A stretch of 38,693 nt of DNA. Source: Thermoanaerobaculia bacterium (lineage in GTDB: Bacteria > Acidobacteriota > Thermoanaerobaculia > Thermoanaerobaculales > Sulfomarinibacteraceae). Of this stretch, positions 282 through 10,712 are shown in pieces. The stretch is taken from assembly GCA_027061805.1 (NCBI GenBank), contig JAMOWA010000043.1, positions 1 through 38,693 of the forward strand, written 5' to 3'. A program made the position numbers and the translations under genes. Each line of letters opens with the position of its first letter. The first letter of the stretch is position 1. Below the pieces are notes generated by a model. The model had not been told where the DNA came from. It ran no database searches and saw only the letters and a list, made by a program, of their open reading frames with translations.

Positions 282-3200
282 TCAGCTCGGCTCGCCCTCC
301 GTGGGCTTGACCGGGCCGAGGGTGGGGAGGGTGGGAAGCCCCATCCCGGCCGAGGACCACCCGGCACCATCGCCCTCCCGGCCGGCTCGCAGGACGTTGG
401 CCGGGTAGAAGGGGCACCCCTCCCGGTGGCAGTCCCGGTTGATCCCCGCCTGGTGACACACCAGCTTCTCGTCCGCGGCCAGCCGGATCCCGATGACCTC
501 CTCCGAGAGCTCGGAGGCCGCGAGCAGCGCCTCCCAGCTGTCCCGCTGGCAGCACCGTGCGGCCTCGTACCGGCCGATGCGCTGGAGGACCCGGATCGTG
601 ACATCGTGCAGCTGGTGGCGGCGGTGCCCCTCGTAGGGGTTGGCGCCGAGGATCACCGAGAACGCCGTGGCCACGCCGAGCCCGCCCCCGCAGGCTCCCA
701 GGAAGGCGCAGGCCCCACCCGGCACGGTCTTCCCCCGCTCCACAGCCATGGCCACGTGGCTGTCCTCGAGCTCCAGGCCCGAGGCCCGGGCCACGGAGAC
801 GATGACGGCCGGCACCAGGGCGTGGTACTCCGGCCCGTGGATGGGAATGGCGGGGTGCCGCCGTATCCGGTCGAACAGGACCAGCATGTCGGTCTCCCGC
901 AACGCCGTGCACAACGACGTGATCACCTCGAGGGCATCGCGGCTGTGGCACTCGTCGCAGACGAAGTGTCCCTTGCCGCACCGGGCGCTGGTGGGCAGCG
1001 TCCGCCCGCAGTAGGCACAGGCCATCTCCTCGGCGACGGCCAGGTACTCCAGGGGCTCACCGCACACCATGCAGCCCTCGCGGTCGGTGATGCGGGGCGG
1101 CGGCGCCGGCCGCTCCTCCGCCGGGGACGGCGGCACGAAGCACGCGCAGCCCGCACCCAGGTCCACGTTGGTGACCGCCCCCTCCCCGTCCAGCAGGAAC
1201 ACGGACTCGTCCTCGGGGAAGGGGCCCGGCACCGCAAGCTCCACCGTCGCGCCCCGGGGCACGAGGGTCCCGTCCTCGGTGACCACCGCCGCCCAGGGCC
1301 CGCGGAAGATCACGGACCGCCGCTCGGTCTCCGACGGCCGGTACGCGGCGTAGGTCAGCGAGAAGAAGCGGTACCCCCGGACGGTGCGGTAGGGGAAGCG
1401 CTTGAGGACCCGGATCCCGGAGAACCCGCACTCGGCGAGCAGCGCGAGAAGCTCCTCCTGGCGCATGGCGCCCCCGAGGCACTCGCCCCGGAGCTTCTCG
1501 TTGTAGCGGATCTCCAGGGGGATGGGGCCGTCGCTGACCACGTCGGCGATCACCAGGCGGCCTCCAGGACGCAGCACCCTGCGGATCTCGCCGAAGGTCC
1601 TGCGCTTGTCCACCGACAGGTTGATCACGCAGTTGGAGAGCACCACGTCGGCCGAGGAATCCGCGAGGGGGATCGCCTCCAGCAGCCCCTTCTCGAAGGC
1701 GACGTTGCCGTACCCCAGCTCCGCCTCCACCTTCCGGGCGCCCTCCCGGGCCAGCCGCAGCATCTCGTCCAGCATGTCCACGCCGACCACCCGGCCCGTG
1801 GGGCCGACCCTCTGCGCCGCGATGAAGCACTCCACCCCGGCCCCGCAACCCAGGTCCACCACGGTCTCGCCCTCCACGAGACCGGCGTCCAGCACGGGGC
1901 TGCCGCAGCCGTAGCTGCGGGCGCGGGCGGCCTCGGGGACGTGCTCGAGCGCCTCCTCGCCGTAGCCCACGGGGTTGGCGATGTCCTCGAGCGGCTCCGC
2001 GGCGGCGGAGGCGTAGAACTCCTTGGCCAGGGTGTGGCCGTCCTTGCCGGGCAGCGAGAGCACGCAGTTGGAGTGGGCCAGTCCCACGGCCGCGTCCTCC
2101 TCGCCGCAGACCTCGAGCCGCTCGCCCATGCGTGCACGGAGCGCGGGGAAGGGCACCGCGTCCTCCGGCCCCGCCTCGGAGACCATGAGCCACAGGGCGG
2201 TCCGGTTGTACAGCTCCACCCAGGGGTCGTGGCCCGTGAAGCTCCGGCCCGCCACCCAGCTGTGGTCCACGTCGCCCCCGCCCACGAGGAACCGCAGGGG
2301 GTTCTCCATGGCGGCGGGGTCGTCCACCAGCGTGGCCCTCCGCAGGCGCTCCAGCGCCTCGCCCTCCCGCCACGCCGTCTCGAGCCCGTCGTCCACGTGG
2401 CCCGCGGCCAGCTCCCGCTCGAAGACCAGGGCGGCGGTGGGGTACACGATGCCGTCCGGGCCCACGGCCACCGACTGCCAGCCGGCGTTGGAGAGGTCGA
2501 AACGGGTCCCCGGCAGGGAGAACACCTGGCTCCGGAGGATCTCCACGTTGTCCACCTCGATGCCGGCCCGGGCCGCCGTCTCCGCGGCCGACTTCAGACC
2601 TCCGAACACCCGCTCCACGGGGGGAAGATCGGCCCGGTCCCCCTTGCCCTTGACGAAGTACCAGAGGTAGTGGACCGAGGGCACGCCCAGGCGCGCGGCC
2701 ACCTCCACGGGGTGGGCCATGTGGTCCACGTTGCTCCGGCCAACCGTCATGGCCAGGGAGACGGGGAAGCCCATGGCGAGGAGCTCCTCCACCCGCCGGA
2801 GCAGCCGGTCGTGGGCCCCCTCGCCCCTGTAGCGGTCATGGTCCTCCGGCGGGCCGTCCAGGCTCACCTGGAAGTGGAACCTGTCCCGGGGCAGACGCTC
2901 CAGGACCCCCCTGAGCCGGGGTACGGCCAGGGCGTTGGTCATCAGGACGGTGTGGGTGTCGTCACGGCGGGCCAGCCGGTCCAGCAGCTCCGGCAGGCCG
3001 GGATGGATCAGGGGCTCGCCACCCGTCAGGTAGAAGATCCGGCACCCCAGGTCCTCCGCCTCGTCCACCACGCGGAGCAGCCTCGCGGTGTCGAGCTCCA
3101 GGGAGGCCTCGGGGGACGACGCGAAGAGGCAGTGGGTGCAGGCCAGGTTGCACCGGTTCGTCACGTGGAGCCAGCACTCGCGGAGGGCCTCCAGCTTCAG

Positions 3201-3497
3201 CCGCCCGGCACGGCCCCCGTAGGGCTCGGGCTCGACCCGGGGGAACCTCGCCAGGAACAGGTCCACCTGGGCCCGGGCGGCCTCCTCCGGAAGGCCGGCG
3301 TCCCTGGCGAGGGCCCGCACCGCAGCAGCGGGATCGCCCGATCGCCCGAGCCCGGTGAGCACGAGGTCGCCGCGGCGGTTGGGAACCACCCAGTGTGGGC
3401 CCTCCGGGTGCACCCACACCGCGGTGCCCTCCCACTCGAGCCTGCACCATCCACGGACCGGGGAGCCGTTCGCTCCCCCTGAAGGGGTCGATACCAT
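282..3497 (-). CDS. PqqD-like / radical SAM / ArsM-like methyltransferase / DUF5714-like fusion protein
   Basis: This 1071-residue cytoplasmic protein appears to join four modules. Residues about 20-85 resemble a PqqD-type peptide-recognition fold (inferred from pattern only). Residues about 108-300 are a radical SAM domain with the cluster motif C116-x3-C120-x2-C123 and TGGEP at 158-162. Residues about 338-415 look like a SPASM domain that has lost its cysteines (GPDGIVYPT, then GGG at 406-408). Residues about 505-720 are a class I methyltransferase with motif I VDLGCGAG (547-554). C531, C623 and C673 sit in the contexts YGCGSP, SNCVINL and GECLGGA that carry the three conserved cysteines of arsenite methyltransferases (ArsM). 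Residues about 805-1035 are DUF5714-like, with CxxC pairs 809/812 and 827/830, C840/C847/C850, and a later C930/C936/C982/C983 group. Substrate is unknown; metalloid or thiol chemistry is a guess. A GGAGG lies 11 nt before the ATG, longer than usual here. It follows radC with a 67-bp gap and has its own candidate promoter. Confidence 0.85.
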   Translation of the reverse strand: MVSTPSGGANGSPVRGWCRLEWEGTAVWVHPEGPHWVVPNRRGDLVLTGLGRSGDPAAAVRALARDAGLPEEAARAQVDLFLARFPRVEPEPYGGRAGRLKLEALRECWLHVTNRCNLACTHCLFASSPEASLELDTARLLRVVDEAEDLGCRIFYLTGGEPLIHPGLPELLDRLARRDDTHTVLMTNALAVPRLRGVLERLPRDRFHFQVSLDGPPEDHDRYRGEGAHDRLLRRVEELLAMGFPVSLAMTVGRSNVDHMAHPVEVAARLGVPSVHYLWYFVKGKGDRADLPPVERVFGGLKSAAETAARAGIEVDNVEILRSQVFSLPGTRFDLSNAGWQSVAVGPDGIVYPTAALVFERELAAGHVDDGLETAWREGEALERLRRATLVDDPAAMENPLRFLVGGGDVDHSWVAGRSFTGHDPWVELYNRTALWLMVSEAGPEDAVPFPALRARMGERLEVCGEEDAAVGLAHSNCVLSLPGKDGHTLAKEFYASAAAEPLEDIANPVGYGEEALEHVPEAARARSYGCGSPVLDAGLVEGETVVDLGCGAGVECFIAAQRVGPTGRVVGVDMLDEMLRLAREGARKVEAELGYGNVAFEKGLLEAIPLADSSADVVLSNCVINLSVDKRRTFGEIRRVLRPGGRLVIADVVSDGPIPLEIRYNEKLRGECLGGAMRQEELLALLAECGFSGIRVLKRFPYRTVRGYRFFSLTYAAYRPSETERRSVIFRGPWAAVVTEDGTLVPRGATVELAVPGPFPEDESVFLLDGEGAVTNVDLGAGCACFVPPSPAEERPAPPPRITDREGCMVCGEPLEYLAVAEEMACAYCGRTLPTSARCGKGHFVCDECHSRDALEVITSLCTALRETDMLVLFDRIRRHPAIPIHGPEYHALVPAVIVSVARASGLELEDSHVAMAVERGKTVPGGACAFLGACGGGLGVATAFSVILGANPYEGHRRHQLHDVTIRVLQRIGRYEAARCCQRDSWEALLAASELSEEVIGIRLAADEKLVCHQAGINRDCHREGCPFYPANVLRAGREGDGAGWSSAGMGLPTLPTLGPVKPTEGEPS

Positions 3498-3527
3498 GCG
3501 CCTGGTCTCCTCCCTCCCCCGGAGCCG

Positions 3528-6143: not shown

Positions 6144-6883
6144 ACCGGTGTGACGAGATCCGCGAGCTCCTTCCCGCCTTCGTGGAAGGCGAGCTGGAGC
6201 CCCGGGACACCGGCACGGTGACGGCCCATCTCGAGGAGTGTGCCGCCTGCCGGGAGACCGAGGAGGCGCTCCGCCTGATCGCCGCAGCAGGAGCGGGGCT
6301 CCAGGCGGTCACCCCACCGGAGCACCTCACCGGCATGATCACGGCAACGCCCTGCGCCCGGTGGCTGGGGCTGCTGCACGGCGCCGTGGATCGCGACCTC
6401 GAACCCGAGGTCCTGGCGAGGCTCCTCGGACACCTGGAGAGCTGCGAGGGATGCCGGCGGGCCTGGGACGACCTGACGCTGATCCACCAGGTGGCGAAGG
6501 CTCTCGTTCCGCCCCCGGGCCTGGAGCACCGGTGCCGCAACATCACCGGCCTGCCGCAGCGGGAGGCCCGGATCTTCGGGTTCCGGACCGCCACGGCCGC
6601 GGCCTACCTGCTGGCCGTCCTGACCACGCTCCTGCTGGGCAACCCCGTGACGCTGGCGCGCCACGAGTCCGGCATCGTCCACCAGGCGAGGAGCGTGGTC
6701 CGCGAGACCGTCTCCACCGTGACCGACGAGAGCCGTGGCGAGCTCCGCCTGATGCTGTGGCGCACCTGGCAGTGGGGCAGGCAGCAGGCCGAGGTGCTCC
6801 GGGAGCTCGTCGCCGGCCCCGAGAACGACACCACCCCGGCACCCGAGGAGGTGCCGGACCAGGACCAAGGAGGACGCGAATGA
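6140..6883 (+). CDS. Membrane anti-sigma factor with two zinc-finger (zf-HC2) domains
   Basis: This 247-residue protein carries two putative zinc-binding anti-sigma modules in tandem. The first uses C4, H30, C34 and C37; the second uses C72, H98, C102 and C105. Both show the H-x3-C-x2-C signature of the ZAS family. A single transmembrane helix lies at about 150-168, leaving a C-terminal part of about 80 residues outside, ending in an acidic proline-rich tail. It should bind and inhibit the sigma factor encoded just upstream, with which it shares an ATGA overlap. Most zf-HC2 anti-sigmas have one finger. It overlaps the next gene by ATGA as well. Confidence 0.88.
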   Translation: MNRCDEIRELLPAFVEGELEPRDTGTVTAHLEECAACRETEEALRLIAAAGAGLQAVTPPEHLTGMITATPCARWLGLLHGAVDRDLEPEVLARLLGHLESCEGCRRAWDDLTLIHQVAKALVPPPGLEHRCRNITGLPQREARIFGFRTATAAAYLLAVLTTLLLGNPVTLARHESGIVHQARSVVRETVSTVTDESRGELRLMLWRTWQWGRQQAEVLRELVAGPENDTTPAPEEVPDQDQGGRE

Positions 6884-7548
6884 ACGACCACGACACCAAC
6901 CCGAACGCTCCGGGCACGCCCCCGAAACCGCCCGTTCCCCCCGCCCGGCAGGAGAAGACCGAGCAGGAACAGTCACTGCCTCCGCGGCCTCCCGCCCAAC
7001 CCACGCCCGCCGCGCAGCGGGCGCCGGAACAGCCGGCGGTCCCGGTCCCACCGCCACCGGCCGCCATGCCCGCCTCCCCGCTCCGGAAGTCGCCCGCACT
7101 GGCCGTGATCCTCTCCTTCTTCACGGGACTGGGCCACCTCTACCTGGGCCTCTACCAGCGCGGCATCGTGTTCTTCGCGCTCTTCGCCGGCGCCATCGCC
7201 CTGACCACCAACATCGGGGAGCTGGGCATCCTGATCCCCTTCGTCTGGTTCTTCGGCCTCATCGACGCCTACCGCCAGGCCCAGCTCATCAACCTGGGCG
7301 GCCTGGAGGAGCCCACCCCGGCCTCGCGGAAGCAGTCCAACCTGGGGTTCGGTGTCTTCCTCACGGTCCTGGGCGCCGTGCTGCTGATCAACAAGTTCTA
7401 CCCCCTCGACTTCACCTGGCTCCGCGAGTGGTGGCCCGTGGCCCTGGTGCTCCTCGGCCTCCACCTCATCGCGAGCGCATGGTACGAACGGAAGAAGCAG
7501 GAGGAGGTGGACCGGCGGAAGGCCGAGGAGGACGGACCGGACTTCTGA
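6880..7548 (+). CDS. Proline-rich TM2/DUF5668-like membrane protein
   Basis: This 222-residue protein has a disordered proline- and glutamine-rich cytoplasmic tail (residues 1-70), then hydrophobic segments at about 72-90, 93-110, 114-130, 155-170 and 185-200. The end is charged and lysine/glutamate-rich. The LSFFTGLGHLYLGLYQRG segment resembles TM2-type membrane domains. The later segment, with GAVLLINKF and EWWPVALVLLGL, resembles the LiaI/DUF5668 fold found in envelope-stress proteins. It is the third gene of the sigma/anti-sigma operon, joined by ATGA. This suggests a role in membrane-stress sensing or response, but that is inferred from position only. Confidence 0.75.
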   Translation: MNDHDTNPNAPGTPPKPPVPPARQEKTEQEQSLPPRPPAQPTPAAQRAPEQPAVPVPPPPAAMPASPLRKSPALAVILSFFTGLGHLYLGLYQRGIVFFALFAGAIALTTNIGELGILIPFVWFFGLIDAYRQAQLINLGGLEEPTPASRKQSNLGFGVFLTVLGAVLLINKFYPLDFTWLREWWPVALVLLGLHLIASAWYERKKQEEVDRRKAEEDGPDF

Positions 7549-7602
7549 ACGCTCCACACACGAAGCCCTCGCGCCCCCCGGCTGCGGCCCCTCCTCCGGG
7601 GC

Positions 7603-7625
7603 GGGCGGGCGGCTTCACCCTTCAC
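7603..7625. repeat. Direct repeat copy 1 (23 bp)
   Basis: This is an exact match to 7759-7781. It begins with GGGCGGGCGGC and ends with TTCACCCTTCAC. The copies are 156 bp apart and in the same orientation. Confidence 0.85.
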
Positions 7626-7634
7626 GTCTTCATC

Positions 7635-7662
7635 GTGAAACGTGAAAGGTGAAACGTGAAAC
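7635..7662. repeat. Four tandem GTGAAAC/G heptamers
   Basis: Four consecutive 7-bp units read GTGAAAC, GTGAAAG, GTGAAAC and GTGAAAC. The preceding TTCAC motifs are their reverse complement, so the block can fold back on itself. Confidence 0.85.
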
Positions 7663-7758
7663 GAATGAGGCACTTCCGGTGAGAAGGCCAAGGGCTGCTG
7701 CGCAAACGCCGGGAAGAGACGCCAAGCCACCCACTCCCCTGCCCCCGTGCTCCCGGAC

Positions 7759-7813
7759 GGGCGGGCGGCTTCACCCTTCACTCTTCACATCTTCACTTCC
7801 TCACGTCCTCACC
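7759..7813. repeat. Direct repeat copy 2 and TTCAC/CTCAC tract
   Basis: This contains the second copy of the 23-bp repeat (7759-7781), followed by irregular TTCAC and CTCAC units at 5-8 bp intervals to 7813. A related tract occurs at 31231-31283. Confidence 0.75.
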
Positions 7814-7823
7814 AACAACAAAC

Positions 7824-7845
7824 GGGGCGCCCGCAGGGGCGCCCC
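7824..7845 (-). terminator. Rho-independent terminator of the Ig-like protein gene
   Basis: A perfect 9-bp stem (GGGGCGCCC / GGGCGCCCC) with a 4-nt loop is followed on the minus strand by GTTTGTTGTT. It lies 23 bp past the stop of the minus-strand secreted-protein gene. Confidence 0.85.
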
Positions 7846-7867
7846 GGGAAGCTCGCCGGGACCCGGC

Positions 7868-9553
7868 TCAGTCGTTCAGGTTGTCCACGATGAAGGTCCG
7901 CTGACCCACGAAGTTCTTGTTGCCATCGCGGTCCAGCGAGCGGATGACGAGGTAATGCTCCCCGTCGGTCAGCATCGTGGTATCCAGGTCGTAGGCGAAC
8001 CCGGCATCCTCCGTCCAGCAGATGGGCCACCACGGCTGGGACTCCATCAGCTCGGGGCTGTCCAGGTGGTCGTCGGCGAGCCCCATGAGCTTGCCATCCA
8101 CGTAGACCTCCACACGCTCGATTTCCTGGAAATCGATGGCCCACCCGGTCACGGGATAGATGCCGGCCACCCTCTCCATGTTCGTCGGCGTGTAGATGTC
8201 GCCGAAGGAGTAGCAGTCGATGTCACAGTTCCCGCACCGGATGATCACGGGGATGGTGCCGATCTTCGAGCTGTAGCCTTCGAAGTCGGTGGCCCGGACC
8301 GTCAGCCAGTGGAGGCCCTGCTGGAAGCCCTTGTTGTAGAGGAGGTCCTGGACGTTCACCGCGAGGATGTAGCCGCTGTCCTTGGAGGCCGGCACGTCGG
8401 GGAACATCCTGTGGATGTCAAGGCGCTCGATCCCGAGGTAGTTCACGTAGCGCTGGTAGAAATCCAGGTAGAACTGGTCCACGGGGGCCTTGGCCAGAGA
8501 GACACCGTCGATCAGGAGCTCCACGGAGGCCACGCCTCCCAGGTCGTGACGGCTTCCCACGTCGAGCACCCATCCGGCAACCCACTCCCACTGGGTTGGA
8601 TCCACCGGATCCGGCTCCCAGCCAGGAGGCGCCGACCATCCCGGCTCGCCAGGCTGGACCTCGCCCTCGCAGTAGACACCGATGTAGTGGTTCTCGATGG
8701 GCCACTCGATGCGGCCGAACGGCGCCAGGTTGCGCCCGTTGTTGAAGACCTGCACGAAGCGCTGCCCGATCACCCTGGAGGCGCCCTCGTCGTCCCACAG
8801 CCGCACCGCGAGGGTGTGCACGCCGTTGGTGAACTTCGTGGTGTTCAGCATCCGCACGAAGCCGGAGCTGGCGGCGTCGGGATCGGACGGGAAGCGGTTC
8901 TGGACATCGGGACGGGGAATCCCGAGCTCGGCACCGCCGATCACCTGGCCGTCCACCAGGATCTCCACCTTCGTGACCTCGCCGTCATCCAGGGCCCAGC
9001 CCGACACGGGGAAGACACTGTCCATGGGCTGGGCGGGGCCCGGCAGCTCGAGCTCGCCGAAGGGGGCCTGGTTGAGGTCCTTGTTCACCGTGACGGAACG
9101 GTTTCCGAAATCCTCCGTGGTGCTGTCGGAGAAGGTCACCCGAAGGAACAGGGTGTGTGCCCCGTTGGTCAGGGAATCCGCATCGAAAGAGGTGCTGAAA
9201 CCCGGGTACGGCTGTGCGCTGGCGGCCACCCAGGGGTAGGCCTGCAGCACGTCATAGCGGGGCTTATTGATGTCCACACTGGCGAGGTACACGCCATCCA
9301 CGTAGAGGTCGATATTGCTCACCCCACGCGGGTCGACGATCCAGCCGGCCACCTCCACGAGGCCCGCGACAACGGCCTCCTCCGGCGGGGTGTCCAGCCA
9401 GAACATCGTCTGCTGACCCATTCCCGCCGGCGCTTCGTGAACGACGCTGGCTGAGACCTTTTCCAGCACAACATCGGTGCTCCCCGCCTGCACCGCCTGG
9501 GGGATCAACAGGGCCAGAGAAACGAGCGCAACACCGATCATCGAGTGACGCAT
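7868..9553 (-). CDS. Secreted protein with four Ig-like repeats
   Basis: This 561-residue protein begins with a clear signal peptide (MRHSMIGVALVSLALL, cleavage likely after AVQA at about 24). The mature part consists of four diverged repeats of about 110-130 residues. Each has a pattern like V-x-GW-x-hD, V-x-VDG, a gap, SGF or AGF, then NG-x-HTL-x-hR-x-D. This suits bacterial Ig-like beta-sandwich domains. The third-to-fourth junction holds a small cysteine cluster (RCGNCDIDC). There is no enzyme motif or anchor; it is probably exported and structural or adhesive. A longer frame reaches 9583, but the ATG at 9553 has GGAGG 7 nt upstream and starts the signal peptide. A strong promoter and a terminator bracket it, so it is likely monocistronic. 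Confidence 0.82.
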   Translation of the reverse strand: MRHSMIGVALVSLALLIPQAVQAGSTDVVLEKVSASVVHEAPAGMGQQTMFWLDTPPEEAVVAGLVEVAGWIVDPRGVSNIDLYVDGVYLASVDINKPRYDVLQAYPWVAASAQPYPGFSTSFDADSLTNGAHTLFLRVTFSDSTTEDFGNRSVTVNKDLNQAPFGELELPGPAQPMDSVFPVSGWALDDGEVTKVEILVDGQVIGGAELGIPRPDVQNRFPSDPDAASSGFVRMLNTTKFTNGVHTLAVRLWDDEGASRVIGQRFVQVFNNGRNLAPFGRIEWPIENHYIGVYCEGEVQPGEPGWSAPPGWEPDPVDPTQWEWVAGWVLDVGSRHDLGGVASVELLIDGVSLAKAPVDQFYLDFYQRYVNYLGIERLDIHRMFPDVPASKDSGYILAVNVQDLLYNKGFQQGLHWLTVRATDFEGYSSKIGTIPVIIRCGNCDIDCYSFGDIYTPTNMERVAGIYPVTGWAIDFQEIERVEVYVDGKLMGLADDHLDSPELMESQPWWPICWTEDAGFAYDLDTTMLTDGEHYLVIRSLDRDGNKNFVGQRTFIVDNLND

Positions 9554-9576
9554 TCTTCTTCCTCCCTGAAAAAACA

Positions 9577-9588
9577 AGCTCATGAGCT
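9577..9588. promoter_or_regulatory. 12-bp palindrome AGCTCATGAGCT in the Ig-like gene leader
   Basis: This perfect palindrome lies within the predicted 5' leader of the secreted Ig-like protein, between its promoter and ribosome site. It could be an operator or a small RNA hairpin; there is no direct evidence for either. Confidence 0.3.
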
Positions 9589-9606
9589 GAAAACCTCTCG
9601 CCCGAA

Positions 9607-9636
9607 ATCATATACCACACGTGTTCTGCTGGTCAA
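9607..9636 (-). promoter_or_regulatory. Sigma-70 promoter of the Ig-like protein gene
   Basis: On the minus strand TTGACC (9636-9631), an 18-bp spacer and TATGAT (9612-9607) form a strong match. An overlapping TATATG gives a 16-bp spacer. The leader is about 45 nt to the ATG at 9553. Confidence 0.75.
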
Positions 9637-9662
9637 ACACAATCCCTCACACAATTGCCCGC

Positions 9663-9698
9663 AAAAAAGCCGCGGACACCCCCGAGGTGACCCCGCGC
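9663..9698 (-). terminator. Probable terminator of the deacetylase-like gene
   Basis: On the minus strand an imperfect GC-rich hairpin (CACC ... GGTG core with bulged outer stem) is followed directly by six T. It lies 25-60 bp past the stop at 9723. The stem is imperfect, so confidence is moderate. Confidence 0.5.
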
Positions 9699-9722
9699 AC
9701 ATTCTCCGCCGGTTTTCGGCCC

Positions 9723-10712
9723 TCACGAGGCTCCAGTCACGGCGGGCCTCTCCCCGGGGATCACCAGGCTCGCCACGTGGGCCCGGGCCGACCTGCCCAG
9801 CGCCTGGAGGTCGTATCCGCCCTCCAGCAGGGAGAGAATCCTCCCCCCGCCCCAGGTCTCGGCGGCCTGGACGATGGCCCGCGTCATGCGCTCGAACCCG
9901 GCCTCCGTGACCTCCATGCCCCCCAACGGGTCCCCGGCGTGGGCGTCAAAACCGGCCGACACCACGATGGCGGCGGGCTTCAGACGTGAGCCCAGCTCCT
10001 CGAGGCCCGCCTCCAGGGCGGAGGCGTACACGGCGTCGTCGGCACCCACCGCCAGCGGGAAGTTCCGGGTGGCCCCGCGGCCCGCACCCTCCCCCACCTC
10101 GTCCGCAGCGCCGGTCCCGGGGTAGAAGGGATACCTGTGGACCGAGAGATACCCCACGTCCGGGCGCTCCCAGAACAGGCGCTGGGTCCCGTTGCCGTGG
10201 TGGACGTCGAAGTCCACCACCAGCACTGGTGCCTGCCAGGCCCGGGCGATGACCTCGGCGGCCAGGGCGGCGTTGTTGAAGAAGCAGAAGCCCATGGCGC
10301 GGTCGGCCTCGGCGTGATGGCCCGGTGGCCGGACGGCGAGGAACGCGCGGTGGAGCCGTCCGTTCACCAGGTCGAGAGCCGCCTGCACGGCCAGCCCGGC
10401 CGCCGCGAGGGCCGCCCGGAGGGTGCCCTCCGAGACGGGGTTGTCCGGTCCGTCCAGGGTGGACGGGGCCCGCTCGACGGCCTCCACCAGCCTCAGGATC
10501 AGGCTGGGCTCGTGGAGCCACCTGATCACGCCCAGGATGTCGTCGTCCGGGGGGAGGACCGCCTCCTGCTCCAGTTCCCACGGGCCGCCGTTGGCCGCCA
10601 GGGCCCCCAGCACGGACCGGAGCCTCGCGGGCACCTCCGGATGCCCCGGCCGCGGGACGTGCCGGAGCTGGTCGGGATGGGACCGGACCTCCACGATGTC
10701 GCTTGCCTTCAC
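9723..10712 (-). CDS. Histone-deacetylase-family (AcuC-like) zinc amidohydrolase
   Basis: This 329-residue protein has the full class I/II deacetylase motif series: RPPGHHAE with the general-base pair H132/H133, GFCFFNN (141-147), DFDVHHGNGT with zinc ligands D169 and H171, PFYPGTG, SAGFDAHAGDPLG with third ligand D256, and LEGGYD with Y300. Bacterial members remove acyl groups from protein lysines, acetyl-polyamines or related amides; the substrate cannot be read here. No signal peptide is seen, so it acts in the cytoplasm. Translation starts at a GTG (10712). The minus strand has TATGAT ending 6 nt before it and no room for a ribosome site, so a leaderless mRNA is likely. It is divergent from the flippase-like gene over 25 bp. 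Confidence 0.9.
   Translation of the reverse strand: MKASDIVEVRSHPDQLRHVPRPGHPEVPARLRSVLGALAANGGPWELEQEAVLPPDDDILGVIRWLHEPSLILRLVEAVERAPSTLDGPDNPVSEGTLRAALAAAGLAVQAALDLVNGRLHRAFLAVRPPGHHAEADRAMGFCFFNNAALAAEVIARAWQAPVLVVDFDVHHGNGTQRLFWERPDVGYLSVHRYPFYPGTGAADEVGEGAGRGATRNFPLAVGADDAVYASALEAGLEELGSRLKPAAIVVSAGFDAHAGDPLGGMEVTEAGFERMTRAIVQAAETWGGGRILSLLEGGYDLQALGRSARAHVASLVIPGERPAVTGAS

Follow-up and report, generated by a model that had tools for sequence, protein, structure and literature searches.

A conserved fusion of radical SAM, ArsM-type methyltransferase and DUF5714 domains as a candidate one-chain enzyme of organoarsenical synthesis

The window analysed here is a stretch of 38,693 nucleotides from contig C43 (JAMOWA010000043.1) of a 3.1-Mb Thermoanaerobaculia genome (G000; phylum Acidobacteriota). 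Only 281 bases from the contig end, it carries a minus-strand gene that runs from position 3497 down to 282 as one open reading frame of 1071 codons, closed by a stop codon at 284-282 and containing neither an internal stop nor an in-frame TGA. The encoded chain of 1071 amino acids joins a PqqD/RRE-like domain, a radical S-adenosylmethionine (SAM) domain, an ArsM-type methyltransferase and a DUF5714 domain. An earlier note, made from the sequence alone, had read these four parts in the same order, and Pfam, NCBIfam and a structural model bear out that reading. When the segments were compared with domain families, Radical_SAM, Methyltransf_31 and DUF5714 were all significant in Pfam, and the PqqD-like part has support at the fold level. 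The features of the gene, all on the minus strand, are as follows.

282-3497, minus: whole gene, PqqD/RRE-like + radical SAM + ArsM-type methyltransferase + DUF5714, 1071 amino acids (open reading frame, Pfam, NCBIfam, conserved residues, model)
3507-3511, minus: AGGAG ribosome-binding site, 9 nucleotides 5' of the ATG (read from the sequence)
3243-3455, minus: PqqD/RRE-like N-terminal domain, residues 15-85 (fold only: topology, CteB alignment from residue 15)
2733-3164, minus: radical SAM core, residues 112-255 (Pfam Radical_SAM, E 2e-23; CteB, Z 30.6)
3129-3152, minus: CxxxCxxC cluster motif, C116, C120 and C123 (invariant in 34 fusions)
2163-2510, minus: SPASM-like region, residues 330-445, motif cysteines lost, NAGWxS...YPT/S (alignment, CteB comparison)
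2064-2108, minus: invariant C464 and HxNC (H475, N477, C478), between the radical SAM and methyltransferase parts (alignment)
1170-1985, minus: ArsM-type methyltransferase and its C-terminal domain, residues 505-776 (NCBIfam ArsM; CmArsM 4fr0, Z 28.8; tree)
1905-1907, minus: C531 (YGCGSP), equivalent to CmArsM C72 (alignment)
1629-1631, minus: C623 (SNCVINL), equivalent to CmArsM C174 (alignment)
1479-1481, minus: C673 (GECLGGA), equivalent to CmArsM C224 (alignment)
942-1082, minus: zinc-ribbon-like Cys/His cluster, residues 806-852, with C809, C812, C827, C830, C840, H844, C847, C850 and H851 (invariant in 34 fusions)
405-923, minus: DUF5714 helical domain, residues 859-1031, with HGPExH, GGxCxxxGxCG, RCC and C..C..C (Pfam, invariants, model)

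The four-part chain is confirmed as a real, conserved fusion, because its module order recurs in independent genomes, including genomes of another phylum at 43% identity; an assembly join or a missed stop is thereby ruled out, and the single chain of the earlier note stands. Specifically, a search for homologues with the identical domain order recovered 41 genomes, many of the compared genomes being metagenome-assembled: seven Acidobacteriota (G000, G004, G007, G009, G016, G264 and, across a contig break, G135) and 34 of the 395 genomes compared from the phylum to which a Desulfobacterales genome belongs, in which some of the fusions are cut by contig ends. The nearest relatives of the window gene lie in Thermoanaerobaculia genomes. 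All of the 34 aligned fusions, which span both phyla and to which the invariances given here refer, carry the radical SAM, methyltransferase and DUF5714 Pfam domains. In-frame stops had been flagged in some relatives; the case in L036 is the terminal stop codon where the match ends, and the remaining aligned fusions are open frames without internal stops. A natural split with unchanged order is found in G643 (L149 6545-9642), where DUF5714 has its own gene, the ATG of which shares bases with the stop codon of the radical SAM-ArsM gene (TGATG), and no N stands at the junction; L150, with two frames beside a run of N, was left out of this category, and L043/L068 and L117/L144 were set aside as they look like contig-broken fusions. 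In a plasmid collection, matches were confined to ArsM or DUF5714 parts, and none was a full-length relative.

Fold, cysteines and tree all mark the methyltransferase part as an ArsM domain, and methylation of trivalent arsenic (As(III)) is a prediction well supported by its residues. Methyltransf_31 matches residues 542-683 (E 3e-32), and the best NCBIfam match on residues 501-704 is ArsM (E 3e-67; NF008823, 227.1 bits against a 263-bit cut-off), whereas the DVU_1556 model reaches only 80 bits; among the matches listed for the window protein, no NCBIfam model attains its cut-off. CmArsM (4fr0) aligns to residues 510-776 of the model with Z 28.8, a root-mean-square deviation (rmsd) of 5.9 over 255 residues and 34% identity, the fold being that of ArsM. 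The equivalents of all three arsenic-binding cysteines of CmArsM (structures 5eg5 and 5jx7 are its C72A and C224A mutants) are invariant in 34/34 aligned fusions. The N-terminal cysteine (C44, or CC motif) was not found, the LCC of two-module relatives and of the L038 ArsM being replaced by NP in fusions. When 97 methyltransferase domains were placed in a tree, those linked to DUF5714 formed one clade (100/98), the few differently labelled rows in it being contig-truncated, split or mislabelled fusions. This clade nests in a larger group (100/99) that also takes in arsenosugar ArsM, arsinothricin ArsM and the two-module proteins, and 30 plain ArsM fall outside; the window's methyltransferase groups with the arsenosugar-type ArsM that are partnered with a radical SAM protein. 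The choice of ArsM as methyltransferase type in the earlier note is upheld.

The N-terminal half of the chain resembles a sactipeptide synthase with its SPASM cysteines lost, and its radical SAM part is neither ArsS, ArsL nor TrsS. An AlphaFold2 model of the full chain, built on the 34-row alignment (mean pLDDT 85), shows the b-b-b-a-a-a winged-helix topology of PqqD/RRE over residues 18-84, ahead of the radical SAM barrel. The closest solved fold to this half is the sactisynthase CteB, which shares with the fusion an RRE, a radical SAM and a SPASM fold over residues 15-445 (Z 30.6, rmsd 3.6, 405 residues) but is only 15% identical; in the fusion, the SPASM cysteines are lost and ArsM and DUF5714 are added. 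The PqqD part is upheld at the fold level because of the predicted topology and the CteB alignment from residue 15: the Pfam model (PF05402) scores a sub-threshold 14.1 bits on the window protein against a gathering score of 23.4, and PqqD is absent from the Pfam families listed at E 0.01 for the aligned fusions. The barrel belongs to the radical SAM superfamily by its CxxxCxxC, its GGE (GGEP, residues 159-162, invariant) and its partial-barrel fold. Membership of SPASM does not hold, the auxiliary-cluster cysteines having become N, T or S in the fusions displayed and Pfam SPASM matching weakly in 3/34 fusions. C464 and C478, farther along the chain, are invariant across both phyla. In the radical SAM tree, fusions and two-module proteins share a group (87/89) to which neither the ArsS clade (100/100) nor TrsS belongs. 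ArsS (TIGR04167, cut-off 300 bits) is ruled out, with no match in the window's genome at E 1e-20 and a separate clade; ArsL (NF040542, cut-off 450 bits) and TrsS (NF045646, cut-off 490 bits) are ruled out as lying outside the best 25 radical SAM families (top score 103 bits), TrsS also forming a separate clade. ArsL belongs to a different radical SAM group, NF040542 and its further matches being HpnR/BchE-type families.

The genomes that carry the fusion point to a pathway. Within the set of 395 genomes (fusion in 34, the arsenosugar glycosyltransferase TIGR04282 in 186, ArsS in 120), TIGR04282 occurs in 33/34 fusion genomes versus 153/361 others (p 6e-11), and ArsS in 1/34 versus 119/361 (p 6e-5). 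The 186 TIGR04282 genomes divide into 113 with ArsS only, 32 with the fusion only, one with both and 40 with neither (p 7e-15), so that in its carrier bacteria the fusion almost always stands in place of ArsS. When genomes with either a fusion or a two-module protein are counted (54), ArsS is present in four, and 49 have a TIGR04282 match that exceeds the cut-off. No more than about 6 kb separates TIGR04282 from the fusion in 12 genomes (G004, G425, G466, G496, G502, G581, G634, G641, G653, G715, G753 and G758), for which random positions give a probability of 2e-18, and arsenosugar-type genes make up the most widespread neighbour clusters of fusions. One locus (L141) holds TIGR04283, TIGR04282, the fusion, a TVP38-like gene and a MerA-like flavin adenine dinucleotide (FAD) reductase in a single run, and TVP38 and FAD relatives stand near the fusion in 13 loci. 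The window's own genome has TIGR04282 and TIGR04283 adjacent on another contig (C57), both over cut-off, with no ArsS (TIGR04167, E 1e-20) and no second ArsM match.

Taken together, the residues, trees and gene content somewhat favour a one-chain organoarsenical synthesis enzyme, standing in for the ArsM and ArsS that are separate proteins in arsenosugar-type pathways. The protein would work like the ArsM-ArsS pair but is not an ArsS, for which the family and clade tests fail; what it makes in its one chain is probably a complex organic arsenic compound. In the best-supported step, trivalent arsenic would be bound by C531, C623 and C673 and methylated from SAM. At its [4Fe-4S] cluster, the radical SAM barrel would then cleave another SAM molecule, from which a group would be joined to the methylated arsenic. 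This group is most likely 5'-deoxyadenosyl, because the fusion takes the place of ArsS, whose published reaction is the adenosylation of arsenic (as cited in PMC12159101). The product may be processed by the glycosyltransferases TIGR04282 and TIGR04283, usually encoded in the same genome. More speculatively, DUF5714 could act as a cysteine-rich metal or thiol domain, keeping As(III) bound, reducing it or relaying it from one active site to the other, and could substitute for the Cys-Cys tail that two-module homologues carry at the equivalent place. The linked pathway that the earlier note read from the fusion is borne out. That note had left substrate and product blank; the substrate is no longer wholly so, as cysteines, tree, neighbours and co-occurrence point to arsenic and to an arsenosugar-type pathway. 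The undescribed chemistry that it suspected is possible, yet the closest reading is known chemistry (arsenic methylation and a radical arsenic-carbon bond) in a new one-chain arrangement.

Several points weigh against this interpretation. The radical SAM part lies outside the ArsS family, so the transferred group would be deduced from gene exchange alone, and the role proposed for DUF5714 draws on its cysteines only. The N-terminal CC motif of ArsM is missing from the three-module form. The co-occurrence counts and p-values take no account of common ancestry, and TIGR04282 is a hypothetical equivalog whose 'arsenosugar' name was itself inferred. Forty TIGR04282 genomes have neither fusion nor ArsS, one fusion genome (G796) is without TIGR04282, and the fusion is not adjacent to the glycosyltransferases in most genomes, the window's own included.

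Since the radical SAM part is not ArsS, its product need not match that of ArsS, and the arsenic-carbon bond could be made with another group, either 3-amino-3-carboxypropyl, which ArsL transfers (PMC8552651), or some other carbon skeleton; DUF5714 and the RRE-like domain would then choose the carrier or co-substrate. The ArsM/ArsS pair is without these extra domains, and ArsM serves arsinothricin synthesis too; but ArsL is of the HpnR/BchE-type group and, in TIGR04282 genomes, it is ArsS whose place the fusion takes, and we consider such a different organoarsenical unlikely. A bolder proposal, which we put forward only tentatively, is that one polypeptide would methylate arsenic and then form a radical arsenic-carbon bond to a group foreign to both ArsS and ArsL, with DUF5714 as a new kind of arsenic-holding or arsenic-reducing module that would carry the metalloid back and forth between the two SAM-dependent sites. 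Detoxification alone, with the ArsM part methylating As(III) for efflux or volatilization and the radical SAM part accessory or of lost role, would fit ArsM chemistry being the best-supported part; it is improbable given the invariant CxxxCxxC and GGEP in two phyla, the grouping of the ArsM part away from plain ArsM and the strong tie to TIGR04282.

The two remaining alternatives appear more improbable still, and equally so. The likeness of residues 15-445 to CteB and the RRE-like domain would suit a peptide-modifying enzyme with its methyltransferase acting on the same peptide, against which stand the lost SPASM cysteines, the full ArsM cysteine set of the methyltransferase and the predominance of arsenosugar-type genes among the widespread neighbours. 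DUF5714 might conversely mark a TrsS-like, selenium or other-metalloid system, with the ArsM part acting on antimony, selenium, tellurium or mercury: a separate DUF5714 gene adjoins TrsS in two loci (L153 and L154), and MbdU is a DUF5714-type double selenoprotein (PMC13188914). The radical SAM and methyltransferase parts are, however, not of the TrsS and DVU_1556 types, the window gene has no in-frame TGA, and its relatives have arsenosugar-type neighbours.

Comparison with known systems sets the fusion apart from each. The ArsM-ArsS pair (NF038099 / TIGR04167) likewise combines an ArsM-type methyltransferase with a radical SAM protein and is partnered with TIGR04282/TIGR04283, but it consists of two genes, its ArsS is of another radical SAM family, it has no PqqD/RRE-like or DUF5714 domain, and across genomes it and the fusion are nearly mutually exclusive. 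In arsinothricin synthesis (ArsQML), a radical SAM enzyme makes the arsenic-carbon bond and ArsM methylates the product; there the genes are separate and ArsL is of a different radical SAM group. The earlier note had named the TrsS/TrsM group as a parallel with separate neighbouring genes. That neighbourhood is real: in L153 (G677) and L154 (G633), a TrsS gene (NF045646, 549 bits) has as neighbours a DVU_1556-type methyltransferase and a DUF5714 that is encoded separately, so that three functions share one locus, and this DUF5714 is 46% identical to the window's. The parallel fails for the other two modules, which in the window are of other families (ArsM 227 versus DVU_1556 80 bits; a radical SAM clade of its own), and the TrsS group keeps company with genes for acyl-CoA ligase and molybdenum hydroxylase. 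As read on L154, the CoA ligase of this locus is of the DVU_1553 type, and a dicluster protein is encoded there too.

If the one-chain organoarsenical reading is correct, members of the phylum of the Desulfobacterales genome and of Acidobacteriota would build arsenosugar-type compounds by a second, unrelated radical SAM solution fused to ArsM, the ArsM-ArsS pair being the route known from cyanobacteria. The fusion would then serve to mark those of such bacteria that make complex organoarsenicals and would allow two SAM-dependent reactions at the same arsenic atom to be studied in a single protein, DUF5714 would gain a testable role, and genomes with arsenosugar glycosyltransferases but without ArsS would be accounted for. 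In the literature searched, no paper was found on DUF5714 by name, on an ArsM-radical SAM fusion or on such a protein.

The DUF5714-like domain of the earlier note proved to be DUF5714 itself (PF18978; E 2e-50, 171 bits against a gathering score of 26.2), which all 34 fusions share. At least 15 Cys/His of this part are invariant. Zinc-ribbon matches to the preceding cluster (residues 806-852) are weak. Modelled alone, the DUF5714 part reaches pLDDT 93 and matched none of the solved structures (Foldseek best E 0.8; VIA best Z 3.8), which does not by itself prove a new fold; the backbone of the DUF5714-domain tree is without resolution. Identity with MbdU (NF045648) is ruled out, as residues 803-1034 score 130.6 bits over 232 residues against a cut-off of 600 bits and MbdU requires two selenocysteines. 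C_GCAxxG_C_C (PF09719) matched weakly in 11/37 relatives (best E 1e-4) and not in the window protein. In G454, the gene directly upstream of the fusion (L140 10468-11160) encodes another DUF5714-like protein, a distant one with 27% identity.

A further Acidobacteriota group (L009-L011, L044-L055) has two-module proteins of radical SAM and ArsM only, ending in Cys-Cys and mostly 830-860 amino acids long. They share with the fusion the N-terminal part, the radical SAM domain with lost SPASM cysteines, an HSNC motif, ArsM and similar neighbours, and differ in the tail and in having no DUF5714. The trees disagree on their placement: their radical SAM domains are sister to the fusions, whereas their methyltransferases group with free arsenosugar-type ArsM and not with the fusion clade, which suggests a module swap or a lost radical SAM part. 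Directly 3' of one such gene, in G029 (L073 10846-11688), lies a PrdB/GrdB-like frame with one TGA just before MCNQ; it is likely a UxxC-type selenoprotein, the PrdB model matching at E 2e-40 with the TGA read as selenocysteine.

Upstream of the window gene lie a RadC gene on the same strand and then a PerR/Fur-type regulator on the opposite strand, neither of which suggests a pathway. In three Thermoanaerobaculia genomes, a conserved porin-like gene stands directly 3' of the fusion (L034 5268-6509, L035 3739-4932, L037 13463-14620), the L035 copy of which gave no NCBIfam match; the corresponding side of the window is lost at the contig end. L035 also has a PhnD-like binding protein, a histidine kinase and a sigma-54-type regulator near the fusion (6623-10543), a layout that may resemble that of the arsenite-sensing AioXSR. 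In G505, a 767-amino-acid protein with a TVP38-like start clusters with the FAD reductases (L147 3646-5949) and looks like two arsenosugar-cluster neighbours joined in one chain.

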